This document shows positions 3,957 through 23,397 of a stretch of DNA of 32,696 bases, one piece after another; position 1 is the stretch's first letter; each line of letters starts with the position of its first letter. The translations under genes were made by a program, and so were the position numbers. The DNA is from Desulfovibrio legallii. GTDB lineage: Bacteria > Desulfobacterota > Desulfovibrionia > Desulfovibrionales > Desulfovibrionaceae. The notes under the pieces are model-generated. The model did not search any database, had not been told where the DNA came from, and saw only the letters and a program-made list of their open reading frames with translations. The DNA lies in the NCBI RefSeq assembly GCF_004309735.1, contig NZ_SIXC01000003.1:221471-254166 (forward strand). Reading direction: 5' to 3'.

Positions 3957-4281
3957 CGCGTATTTTGAGAAGGTGCATTCTCAAAATGTTGTGAGGCTCA
4001 CTCCGGTGCTTATCGGTGTAAATACATTGCGTTTACGCCCCATAGGGGATGCCTGCCTGCGCAGTTGCCGGGGCATTTTTACAGTGGAATTGTCCTGAAA
4101 AGCCGCGTTGACGGCAGCCCGCCGCGTCTGTTTTGCGGCCGGGGAGCTTTGCCGTTCTGACAGCATAACCACCGTTCCGACGCGGTTGTCGCAGCGCCGT
4201 TTTTTGCGACAGCCGCGCGGCGCGGAAGCCCTGTGCACGAACCTTTGTCCGAACCCCCTCTCTTCCAGCAAGAGGTTTTTC
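3957..4281. other. 325-nt non-coding leader between FKBP and glnN, with hairpins
   Basis: No convincing gene. Three inverted repeats are visible. (1) ATTTTGAGAA at 3962-3971 pairs perfectly with TTCTCAAAAT at 3978-3987 around a 6-nt loop, directly after the FKBP stop; there is no T-tract. (2) An 8-bp near-perfect repeat, GGTGTAAA/TTTACGCC, lies around 4014-4036. (3) TGTCGCA at 4187-4193 pairs with TGCGACA at 4205-4211. No clean sigma-70 or sigma-54 promoter was found. The length and structures suggest regulated expression of glnN. Confidence 0.5.
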
Positions 4282-8324: not shown

Positions 8325-9101
8325 ATGAAACGTCTGCTCTCGTCACTGGTTCTGCTGCTGCTGATGGCCGCCCCCGCCCTGGCTGCCGAAGACATTGTGG
8401 TGGGCGTCACGCCTTTTCCCCACAAGGACATTATGCTGGTGGCCAAGCCCCTGCTGGCCAAAGAAGGCTACAACCTGGTGCTCAAGGACTTTACCGACTA
8501 CGTGCAGCCCAATATGGCCCTGGCCGGCAAGCAGCTGTTCGCCAACTTTTTTCAGCATCAGCCCTACCTGGACAATATGAACAAGGAAAAGAACCTGGGT
8601 CTTGTATCCATTGCCAAGGTGCATATTGAGCCTCTGGGCATCTATTCCAAAAAAATCAAAAAGCTGGACCAGATCAAAAAGGGCGACATCATTTCCGTGC
8701 CCAACGACCCTACCAATGAAGCCCGCGCCCTGCGCCTGCTGGAAACCAAGGGCCTTATCGGCATCAAGCCCGGCGCGCTGGTGACCGTGGCCGACATCAC
8801 CAAAAATCCGCTCAGTCTCAAAATTCACGAGCTGGACGCCGCCCAGCTGCCCCGCACTCTGGAGGATGTGACCGCCGCCGTCATCAACACCAATTTTGCG
8901 GGCGAGGCAGGCCTCATCCCGGCTCGGGACGCTCTGGCCATGGAGGGCAGCGAATCCCCTTACGCCAACATCATTGTGGTGCGCGCCGCAGACAAGGACA
9001 GCCCCAAGGCCAAGGCCCTGGTCAAGGCCGTGCAGTCTCCGGAAGTGAAGGCGTATATCGAAAAGGTGCTGGTGCCCAAGGGCATTATGCCCGCCTTTTA
9101 G
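8325..9101 (+). CDS. metQ: methionine-binding protein
   Basis: Periplasmic substrate-binding component of the methionine importer (NlpA/MetQ family), 258 residues. A signal peptide runs MKRLLSSLVLLLLMAAPALA with likely cleavage before AEDI; there is no lipobox cysteine, so it looks like a soluble periplasmic protein and not the lipoprotein form common elsewhere. VGVTPFPHKDIM, DYVQPNMALAGKQLFANFFQ and SVPNDPTNEARALRLLE are family signatures. The ATG at 8325 is chosen over an in-frame TTG at 8307 because AAAGGAG lies just upstream of it. Its TAG stop coincides with the first three bases of the 127-bp repeat. D- versus L-methionine preference cannot be told. Confidence 0.95.
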   Translation: MKRLLSSLVLLLLMAAPALAAEDIVVGVTPFPHKDIMLVAKPLLAKEGYNLVLKDFTDYVQPNMALAGKQLFANFFQHQPYLDNMNKEKNLGLVSIAKVHIEPLGIYSKKIKKLDQIKKGDIISVPNDPTNEARALRLLETKGLIGIKPGALVTVADITKNPLSLKIHELDAAQLPRTLEDVTAAVINTNFAGEAGLIPARDALAMEGSESPYANIIVVRAADKDSPKAKALVKAVQSPEVKAYIEKVLVPKGIMPAF

Positions 9102-9225
9102 AGCAGTTAACACTTGAAATGCTCGCTTACGGCAGGCAAAAGCCTGCCTTCTCGCATTTCGTGGCAAGGATTTTCAAGAAAATCCTTGCAGAGCAGTTAA
9201 CTCATTTCATTCGCTAACTGCTCTA
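9099..9225. repeat. 127-bp TA-bounded palindromic repeat, copy A
   Basis: The element starts TAGAGCAGTTA and ends TAACTGCTCTA, an 11-bp terminal inverted repeat flanked or begun by TA at both ends. Inside are nested hairpins: GAAATGC/GCATTTC enclosing GGCAGGC-AAAA-GCCTGCC; a 12-bp stem GCAAGGATTTTC-AA-GAAAATCCTTGC; and a terminal stem GAGCAGTTA...TAACTGCTC. A second copy in opposite orientation lies at 23271-23397; a base-by-base comparison gives only 3 differences over 127 bp. No ORF is carried. Structure and TA borders suggest a MITE- or REP-like non-autonomous element. Confidence 0.9.
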
Positions 9226-16098: not shown

Positions 16099-17847
16099 CT
16101 ACTCTTGCGCGCCTTCCAGTTCCGCCAGGTGGTTGCGGGCGAAATCCAGGCCAGGGTCCAGTTCCAGGGCGGCCCAGAGGTGTTCGCGGGCTTCTTTGGT
16201 CTTGCCCATGAATTTTTCGCACAGTCCCAGATTGGCCAGGTCCACGGCAGACCCCTTGTCCACCCGCAGCACGGCGGCAAAGGCCTGTGCCGCGCCGCTG
16301 TAGTCGTCGGTTTTGAACCGGGCCACACCCAGCAGGTTGGCGTATTCCTTCATTTCCGGGCAGAGGTCCGCAGCCTCGGCCAGAATGGGGATGGCTTCCT
16401 GCCAGTGCCCGGCCAGGGTCTGCGCATAGCCCTGGTAAAAAGTGGCCAAGGCGCGCGCGTCGGCATCGGGCTGCAGGGGGCGGGCCGCGGCGAAAAGGGC
16501 CGAAGCCGCCTCCCAGTTCTGGGCACGCAGGGCCAGCTGTCCTTCAAAAAACGGCAGGAAATGCGCGTCGGGATAGCAGGATGCCAGCACTTCCAGCCCC
16601 TGCCGCGCCGTATCTTCGTCCGCCTCTTCCACCAGTTTGCGCCCTACAAACAGCCCCAGGCACTGGTTGCGATCCCGCTCGCGAAAGGCCAGGCCGGGGG
16701 CCACGCTGTAGTGCGCGGGAATGCCCAGGCGGGGGTGGGTGGTTTCCACCGCGTAGACCTTGGTGGGCGCAAGACCGGCCAAGGCCGCGCGCAGTTCCTC
16801 CAGAATATCGTCATGCTCCACGCTGGGCAGGCTGTCGAGAGCCACAGTGGGGCCTGTTTGCAGCCATTGGGTCTGGGCAAGCTCGGTAAATTTGGGCAGG
16901 CCGGAAGCCTCGTAGCAGGCATTGGTGCAGAAATCGCCAGCCAATTGCGCCACCTCGGTCACGGCCCGCACCGCAGCCTTGGCCGGAGAAGCCGCCGTAC
17001 CCGCCGTGAAGACGATTTCGGAGCTTTGGGGAAAGGTGGTGGGATCCCAGGCCAGGGCGGCCACTGTGGGCACGGGCATGCCCAGCGAAAAATCTTTGAG
17101 CAGCAGGCGCACGCCCTGTTGCGCGAAATCTGCCAGCAGTTCGCCCAGCACAGGGTCCAGCAGGCAGGATTGGGGGTCGATGGTGGGCAGGGCGGGGCGC
17201 TCTCGGTCTACACGGCAGCAGACGTGTCGCTCCACCAGTTCGCAGAGCCCCTGCAACAGCGACTCCTCCGGCGTGTTGCCCGCCGAAGTGCCGTTGAACT
17301 CGCCCAGCAGTTTGAACCAGTCCAGGGGCAGCCAGACTGTGGCGCCGTTGTCGAGGCGGGTGGCCGGGTAGAACTGCCAGGCGCAGCAGTCCAGCACGCG
17401 CCGGGCCGCCGCGGGCGCAAGGCTCGTTTCGTCCACCGAACGCAGCATTTCTTCCACCGGCAAAAGGTCCGCGCCGAACAGCGTTTCCGCCTCGCTCCAG
17501 GTGGCGGTGCGCAGCTGCGGGCGTTGCTGCCAGAAGTGGAAGAAGGCAAAGCGCTCCATCAGTTCCATGAGGGCTGAGGCTTCGGCCTGCTCCGGCGAGG
17601 ATCCCTTGCCCATCTGCTTACGGGTAGGCATGATGCGCCGGGCGTCCGCGCCGCATTCGCTGAGAAAAACAGGAATGCCCAGGCGGCCCACATCCACGCG
17701 CCGGGTGCGGCTGAGCACATCCAGATGCGAGGCCGTCAGGCGTTGCCGCACGCGGGCTATGGTCTGGGCCGGGCTCATGGCCTTGTCCAGGTCGCGGGTG
17801 TAGCCCTTGGGGCAGGAAGTCAGGGTAACGCGGGGCAGGCTGTTCAT
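16099..17847 (-). CDS. YcaO-domain protein with C-terminal TPR repeats
   Basis: A 582-residue fusion. Residues about 1-390 are a YcaO domain, the ATP-dependent backbone-amide activating fold used for azoline or thioamide formation and, in E. coli YcaO, linked to ribosomal S12 methylthiolation. The ATP-site helices are visible at about 81-100 (PEQAEASALMELMERF) and 185-209 (NGTSAGNTPEESL, then GLCELVERHV). From about 400 to the end are TPR-like helical pairs (ALATFYQGYAQTLAGHWQEA, SAVDLANLGLCEKFMGKTKE). No ThiF/E1-like partner, TfuA, dehydrogenase or precursor peptide is seen nearby, so this is not an evident RiPP cluster. The start overlaps the stop of the upstream methyltransferase gene (ATGA), so the two are co-translated. 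The modified substrate is unknown. Confidence 0.9.
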   Translation of the reverse strand: MNSLPRVTLTSCPKGYTRDLDKAMSPAQTIARVRQRLTASHLDVLSRTRRVDVGRLGIPVFLSECGADARRIMPTRKQMGKGSSPEQAEASALMELMERFAFFHFWQQRPQLRTATWSEAETLFGADLLPVEEMLRSVDETSLAPAAARRVLDCCAWQFYPATRLDNGATVWLPLDWFKLLGEFNGTSAGNTPEESLLQGLCELVERHVCCRVDRERPALPTIDPQSCLLDPVLGELLADFAQQGVRLLLKDFSLGMPVPTVAALAWDPTTFPQSSEIVFTAGTAASPAKAAVRAVTEVAQLAGDFCTNACYEASGLPKFTELAQTQWLQTGPTVALDSLPSVEHDDILEELRAALAGLAPTKVYAVETTHPRLGIPAHYSVAPGLAFRERDRNQCLGLFVGRKLVEEADEDTARQGLEVLASCYPDAHFLPFFEGQLALRAQNWEAASALFAAARPLQPDADARALATFYQGYAQTLAGHWQEAIPILAEAADLCPEMKEYANLLGVARFKTDDYSGAAQAFAAVLRVDKGSAVDLANLGLCEKFMGKTKEAREHLWAALELDPGLDFARNHLAELEGAQE

Positions 17848-23270: not shown

Positions 23271-23397
23271 TAGAGCAGTTAGCGAATGAAATGAGCTAAC
23301 TGCTCTGCAAGGATTTTCTTGAAAATCCTTGCCACGAAATGCGAGAAGGCAGGCTTTTGCCTGCCGTAAGCGAGCATTTCAAGTGTTAAATACTCTA
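23271..23397. repeat. 127-bp TA-bounded palindromic repeat, copy B (inverted)
   Basis: Reverse-complement copy of 9099-9225, the same length, with two changes in one terminal repeat (GAGTATTTA for GAGCAGTTA) and one A-to-G change that lengthens the terminal hairpin stem to 11 bp (GAGCAGTTAGC/GCTAACTGCTC). Located between the rhomboid gene start and the rpmB terminator. The surrounding 23106-23465 stretch otherwise holds only a small palindrome, GCGCCTGAGGCGC at 23419-23431. Confidence 0.9.

Follow-up and report, generated by a model that had tools for sequence, protein, structure and literature searches.

Bacterial MITEs are known; to our knowledge, their tolerance by the host and the enzymes that move them are mostly a matter of guesswork. 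Correia (NEMIS) elements occur in tens to hundreds of copies. The RUP element of Streptococcus pneumoniae, for which IS630-Spn1 is the proposed mover, is 107 bp long (PMC2229807, PMC3049150) and, as far as the accessible parts of its descriptions go, combines short length, lack of a transposase, IS630-like inverted ends, a TA target, about 100 copies per genome and a strong fold. The ERIC sequences of enterobacteria are described, in the portions available, as 127 bp long and foldable, with TA at the termini and copies at the 3′ ends of genes (PMC2229807, PMC10969869), and the Correia elements of Neisseria as having TA at the termini and inverted ends of about 24 bp (PMC2229807). SPRITE and QMITE2 are, according to excerpts of their descriptions, overrepresented in or close to 3′ untranslated gene ends; no exact position at the stop codon is given there (PMC3049150, PMC10969869).

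Here we describe a 127-bp repeat of Desulfovibrio legallii, two copies of which lie in a stretch of 32,696 nucleotides (the window). To judge from the available text of the descriptions, RUP, ERIC and Correia are its nearest described relatives, and the same descriptions set it apart from them. The repeat resembles RUP in the respects listed above, but it has another sequence and length, and docking on stop codons is not described for RUP in the accessible text; unlike RUP, it is a repeat for which a matching IS630 element was not found in the host genome, and it spans at least 13 genera. It shares with ERIC the length, the terminal TA, the capacity to fold and the occurrence at gene 3′ ends, whereas its ends and interior are different, and membership in ERIC was rejected because 5,426 E. 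coli genomes gave no match to the element (E ≤ 0.01). The likeness to Correia is one of described features. In the open-licence literature, within its accessible text, we found no description of the 127-bp family or of exact stop-codon docking; relative to the MITEs described there, this docking and a covarying multi-hairpin interior appear to be new.

The repeat and its copies

The two window copies are located at positions 9099..9225 (copy 1, plus strand) and 23271..23397 (copy 2, minus strand), in opposite orientation and exactly where a preliminary description of this DNA had placed them. Copy 1 and the reverse complement of 23271–23397 differ at exactly three positions (6, 8 and 102), and TA is present at both borders of both copies. 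Two further features given in that description for both copies apply to copy 1 only: the 11-bp terminal repeat TAGAGCAGTTA is perfect in copy 1, which is unusual in the family, while the left end of copy 2 reads TAGAGTATTTA, and the motif GAGCAGTTA occurs three times in copy 1 and twice in copy 2. The commonest end pair in the genome is TAGAGCATTTA with TAACTGCTCTA (45 of 86 copies).

The genome of the strain (G000) is a draft of 2,675,015 bases in 35 contigs. A sequence search with the element returned 116 candidates, of which 40 were scored, all 40 matching over 123–127 bases; searches with the two end patterns hit 60 and 68 places, and a covariance model added further ones. Among the loci fetched there are at least 86 distinct full-length copies of this short, transposase-less repeat, dispersed in the genome, and 5 partial or truncated ones. 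Fourteen of the 86 are identical, 60 distinct sequences are represented, and the 83 copies with a length of exactly 127 bp differ pairwise by 3.3% on average. This near-identity suggests that the family expanded recently in this genome. The copy count, far above two, and the absence of the element from the nearest relative searched (see below) do away with the idea, considered in the preliminary description, that there might be only two fixed copies.

Within the genus, the covariance model detects the family in 37 of 79 genomes (E ≤ 1e-3); within the order, it does so in 58 of 297 genomes and 13 of 55 genera (E ≤ 1e-5), three genomes of a second taxonomic family included. The numbers of matches per genome in both searches are to be read as “at least”. 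Among 62 loci whose records bear a name or title, four hold matches (E ≤ 1e-5); those in Desulfovibrio sp. MES5 (L111) and in Desulfovibrio sp. Im510_bin1 (L166) are strong. No match to the element was obtained in a plasmid collection and a phage collection, and viral contigs gave no exact match of one conserved-stem pattern; carriage on phages or plasmids thus finds no support in the collections searched, and a carrier may lie elsewhere. As a side observation, the window also encodes a YcaO-TPR protein (PF02624) at 16099–17847 on the minus strand, whose relatives occur in 62 loci, the titles of which mostly name Desulfovibrio or sulfate reducers related to it.

Target sites

Of the 86 copies, 82 are preceded by C or T and 82 are followed by G or A; at least 4 have lost the final TA. 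A symmetrised profile of 82 sites reads Y-TA-R with little beyond. The nearest relative searched (G044), which is 90% identical over the region of the NlpA-type gene discussed below, gave no match to the 127-bp element in either a sequence search or a covariance model search. Comparison of the two genomes at 10 places displays a single aligned TA in the relative at five (L007, L009, L020, L021, L028), as expected for insertion into TA with duplication of TA. At three places (L005, L017, L023) the TA is absent from the relative, and two are unusable: at L016 its sequence is too diverged, and at copy 1 of the window (L001) the left flank and the TA are kept and are followed by a different repeat, so that copy 1 was rejected as a clean empty site. 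The surroundings of copy 2 are not alignable with the relative. At a further locus of the D. legallii genome (L098), two 127-bp copies stand head to tail with one TA in common, as would be expected if one copy had inserted into the TA at the end of another.

Both genomes also contain dispersed members of a second repeat family, about 146–150 bp long and with related ends (TAGGGCATTGCAACTTTGAAATGCCC / TTCTCAAAGGTAATCTGCTCTA); sites lie at window positions 3964–4078, at L367:19089–19234, at L019, L316, L100 and L315, and elsewhere. Twelve of the 86 elements abut a member of this family within 4 bp, and 28 lie within 200 bp of one. The stop codon of the NlpA-type gene is occupied by the 127-bp element in the window and by a 146-bp copy of the second family in the sister species G044 (L367). 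Two loci of another congener (L043 and L057, genome G002) carry the same right-end hairpin with another interior, one of them resembling the second family, which suggests an exchange of modules between element families. The term “modular”, which had been based on the repeated motif, seems apt in this other sense, namely that similar ends occur on elements with different interiors (L043, L057 and the second family).

Insertion at stop codons

Copy 1 occupies the stop codon of a gene for an NlpA-type lipoprotein (PF03180; 8307..9101, plus strand), the in-frame TAG at 9099..9101 on the plus strand being given by the element itself. The Pfam match of the encoded protein extends to residue 263 of 264. 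Such positions were counted for the 82 of 86 insertions flanked by no fewer than 600 bases on each side, from which the element and one TA were removed; an insertion was taken as docked if the TA left over is the beginning of the stop codon of an open reading frame (ORF) of at least 150 amino acids on either strand. By this definition 34 of 82 insertions are docked, versus 33 of 276 other Y-TA-R sites taken from the window and from these loci (odds ratio 5.2, p = 2e-8); an initial, smaller count had yielded 22 of 49 insertions versus 26 of 196 sites. With a stricter set of non-overlapping long ORFs, the counts are 15 of 82 versus 12 of 316, and restriction to stop and intergenic sites gives 15:40 versus 12:139 (p = 7e-4); this set classes 27 of the 82 insertions as lying inside ORFs, some share of which are possibly shadow ORFs. 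Pfam matches (E ≤ 1e-5) were found in 29 of the 34 docked ORFs (9/10, 9/10, 7/10 and 4/4 in four batches).

The excess is also seen in three other genomes, where 15 of 32 insertions are docked versus 9 of 85 background sites (p = 5e-5). These 32 are the insertions with TA at both ends among 40 fetched, six of genome G046 and two of G241 having been dropped; the individual counts are 6/20 in G070, 5/7 in G046 and 4/5 in G241, the last not significant on its own.

In the occupied state all 34 docked ORFs end in TAG, and six of them would read TAA once the site is restored. Since both ends of the element read TAG inward, a TAA or TAG stop codon struck in its TA stays a stop codon, namely TAG. Docked copies point with or against their gene about equally often (19 versus 15, p = 0.61). 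Insertion into a TAA or TAG stop leaves an in-frame TAG, and copies that are harmless in this way would persist; the docking excess hence likely reflects survival of harmless insertions on top of a Y-TA-R target, rather than a preference of the element for stop codons.

Internal hairpins

Copy 1 contains three neighbouring hairpins on the plus strand, the first one enclosing another, instead of the three nested stems of the preliminary description; the 12-bp stem with a 2-nt loop was described exactly. Hairpin 1 (9116..9160) pairs GAAATGC (9116–9122) with GCATTTC (9154–9160) and encloses an inner hairpin of GGCAGGC (9131–9137) and GCCTGCC (9142–9148). Hairpin 2 (9164..9189) is the 12-bp stem GCAAGGATTTTC / GAAAATCCTTGC. 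Hairpin 3 (9191..9223) is formed by GAGCAGTTAAC (9191–9201) and GCTAACTGCTC (9213–9223), with one mismatch in copy 1, and folds the right end back onto an inner copy of itself. Folding z-scores of the two strands are −7.4 and −8.1 (200 shuffles each), too low for a chance fold. At the gathering score, the Rfam covariance models gave no match in the window with both copies, and a known RNA family was rejected for this reason.

Conservation of the stems was assessed in a plain alignment (A1) of 24 copies, two from the D. legallii genome and 22 from 12 congeners (22 of 27 loci; L035, L042, L043, L054 and L057 were omitted as truncated or of other interior). This alignment was not fitted to the structure, although the structure of 37 pairs was written from one of its members (L005). 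It displays 90.1% standard pairs, changes on both sides at 21 pairs (9.7 in shuffled data) and a covariation score of 0.229 (0.119 shuffled; 0.050–0.074 for slid versions), and RNAalifold recovers most stems from it unaided (34 pairs, 20 with both-side changes). A model-aligned set (A3) comprises 44 copies from 42 chosen loci, other genera included, at a stricter cut-off; it gives 92.2% standard pairs, both-side changes at 30 of the 37 pairs and a score of 0.311 (0.128 shuffled), figures that lean towards the structure to which A3 was fitted. The 42 loci were drawn from the 56 of an alignment A2, which was set aside since it contained matches from the opposite strand.

An RNA acting from one strand should accept G-U pairs more readily than A-C pairs. 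In the element the two kinds of exception are about equal in number (G-U versus A-C: 32 versus 44 in A1, 50 versus 58 in A3), while a small control of 22 tRNA acceptor stems, for which the best-pairing offset was taken and stems of fewer than five Watson-Crick pairs were discarded, gave 4 versus 0; this procedure itself favours pairing. The constraint thus looks strand-symmetric, as for DNA hairpins, pointing to a constraint at the level of DNA rather than of one-strand RNA. Within the D. legallii genome, singleton changes show no preference for loops over stems (22 across the 74 paired columns, 20 across the 53 unpaired ones, p = 0.59), so the resident copies look unconstrained. We infer that compensation belongs to lineages that multiplied further, or to template switching. 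In the former case, palindromic DNA would help the element to move or to persist, and the hairpins would likely be kept between lineages for that reason.

Template switching during replication, by which the arms would be kept matched in place of selection, would concern the fold only. It would be strand-symmetric, as is seen here, but 109 of 126 deviating pair states in 83 copies of the D. legallii genome are uncorrected one-sided changes, and 14 of the 17 two-sided states are a single subfamily pair in common. We therefore regard this explanation of the fold as unlikely, while giving it some weight.

Candidate transposases

The two 23-bp ends of copy 1, TAGAGC...TGAAATG on the left (9099..9121, plus strand) and TAGAGCAGTTAGCGAATGAAATG on the right when read inward (9203..9225, minus strand), resemble ends of IS630 elements of the genus. 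A search of 79 congeneric genomes for PF13358, the catalytic domain of IS630, was positive in 28; among 30 loci fetched for these matches, five gave readable end pairs of the TAGAGC kind. They belong to elements of about 1 kb in G016, G022, G048, G025 and G002 (L061, L062, L063, L086, L087), with TA borders and with TAGAG at each end, extended to TAGAGC at one end or at both. Their best matches to the 23-bp ends comprise 17, 18, 19, 14 and 15 positions, respectively, i.e. 17–19 for three elements and 14–15 for two. Five other IS630 elements of the genus score 8, 12, 12, 10 and 14, and an IS630 end outside the TAGAGC clade (L069) reaches 14 of 23, which equals the score of the weakest clade member. 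Scores of at least 17 are reached by 4 of 1,517 TA-starting 23-mers in the window, the number of element ends there. Three transposases of the clade were scanned and are IS630 by NCBIfam, with DDE_3 by Pfam. Unlike the 127-bp element, these IS630 elements carry a transposase gene, and since their interiors are without similarity to its own, an origin by internal deletion of IS630 was rejected.

A resident transposase with matching ends, which the preliminary description had proposed to look for, was not found in the D. legallii genome by profile search (PF13358), protein search or end-pattern search. The protein search used the G048 transposase on 15 chosen genomes at E ≤ 1; it gave no match in G000, G017, G070, G054, G061, G062, G051, G028 and G044, and G021, G055 and G058 gave matches at E 0.004–0.35 only. 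In the end-pattern search of the D. legallii genome, all 68 of 68 places hold element-like sequence, with no longer element among those fetched. A matching autonomous element in the same genome is usual for a MITE, not definitional. Across the genus, PF13358 is present in 5 of 23 congeners with at least 10 element matches, six of which have weak model matches only (best E 4.5e-5 to 1.1e-6), versus 23 of 56 others (p = 0.13, in the wrong direction). With no positive association in the 79 genomes, a resident IS630 was rejected as the cause of the element’s abundance in the genus.

By its anatomy, then, the 127-bp sequence is an IS630-type MITE, and the mobilising enzyme is a prediction, as no matching transposase was found in the D. 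legallii genome. The earlier suggestion of a MITE moved by a TA-targeting transposase of the IS630 or Tc1/mariner kind is borne out by the multiple copies, the Y-TA-R flanks, the single TA that the relative shows at 5 of the 10 places compared and the IS630-like ends, and falls short in that this transposase was not found in the genome. We consider it probable that the family is a non-autonomous MITE of TA in Y-TA-R sites, likely moved in trans by an IS630-family (Tc1/mariner-like) transposase, which is predicted to recognise the TAGAGC...TGAAATG ends. Such an enzyme would excise the element at its ends and paste it into a TA, thereby duplicating the TA; it may have come from an IS630 copy that has since been lost, that was passing through, or that is absent from the assembly.

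The main rival to a lost, transient or unassembled IS630 is that the element is mobile, but moved by a different enzyme, for example another TA-targeting transposase resident in element-rich genomes. No IS630 was found in the D. legallii genome or in several of the richest congeners despite near-identical copies, and the lack of a positive association across the 79 genomes points the same way. However, in the similarity of its ends and in its TA target the element agrees with the genus's IS630 clade, and the end-pattern search, with element-like sequence at every place, revealed no longer element among those fetched. We hold this alternative to be rather improbable, and retain trans-mobilisation by an IS630-type enzyme as the preferred reading.

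Possible function as RNA and relation to REP sequences

The element might also be a functional RNA, e.g. a 3′-end stabiliser or attenuator of the preceding genes, whose mobility would be secondary. The strong fold with its covariation and the 3′-end location at 34 of 82 sites would agree with this, and copies of ERIC and Correia are reported, in the accessible text, to affect transcripts (PMC10969869). The near-equal G-U and A-C exceptions, the unbiased orientation relative to docked genes, the even spread of singleton changes over stems and loops, and the lack of the element in the nearest relative speak against it, and we judge such a role, as the primary one, to be quite doubtful.

A REP/REPIN-type element, which a RAYT (Y1 transposase) would move in the form of single-stranded hairpins, was the other proposal of the preliminary description and was rejected as highly improbable: the element is palindromic, intergenic and of high copy number, and Y1_Tnp occurs in 46 of 79 congeners, but this domain (PF01797) was not found in the element-rich genomes G000 and G017, inverted terminal repeats and TA junctions are not RAYT features, and a length of 127 bp with TA-TA borders and inverted ends differs from REP sequences, which the available part of one account defines as palindromes of 20–40 bp with a GTAG or CGTC tag at one end (PMC3733652). 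Another genome of the genus (G071) has 35 Y1_Tnp matches, many of them identical, yet no match to the 127-bp element.

Implications

Based on these data, we tentatively put forward, as a possibility that is less likely than not, an order-wide family of mini-transposons that dock on stop codons. For a TAG-initial, TA-duplicating element, TAA and TAG stops in a Y-TA-R context would constitute a safe harbour, and its fold would be selected as DNA, the palindromic structure itself being required when a hit-and-run IS630 enzyme, which then disappears from the genomes it has filled, amplifies the element. The family gives a testable rule for harmless insertion, by which a TAG start combined with a Y-TA-R target leaves stop codons intact, and for which a single genome provides 34 docked reading frames. 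The family also raises the question why a cut-and-paste element keeps internal hairpins by compensatory change across genera. With matches in 37 of 79 congeners, it would also give the annotation of this order of sulfate reducers a further repeat family.
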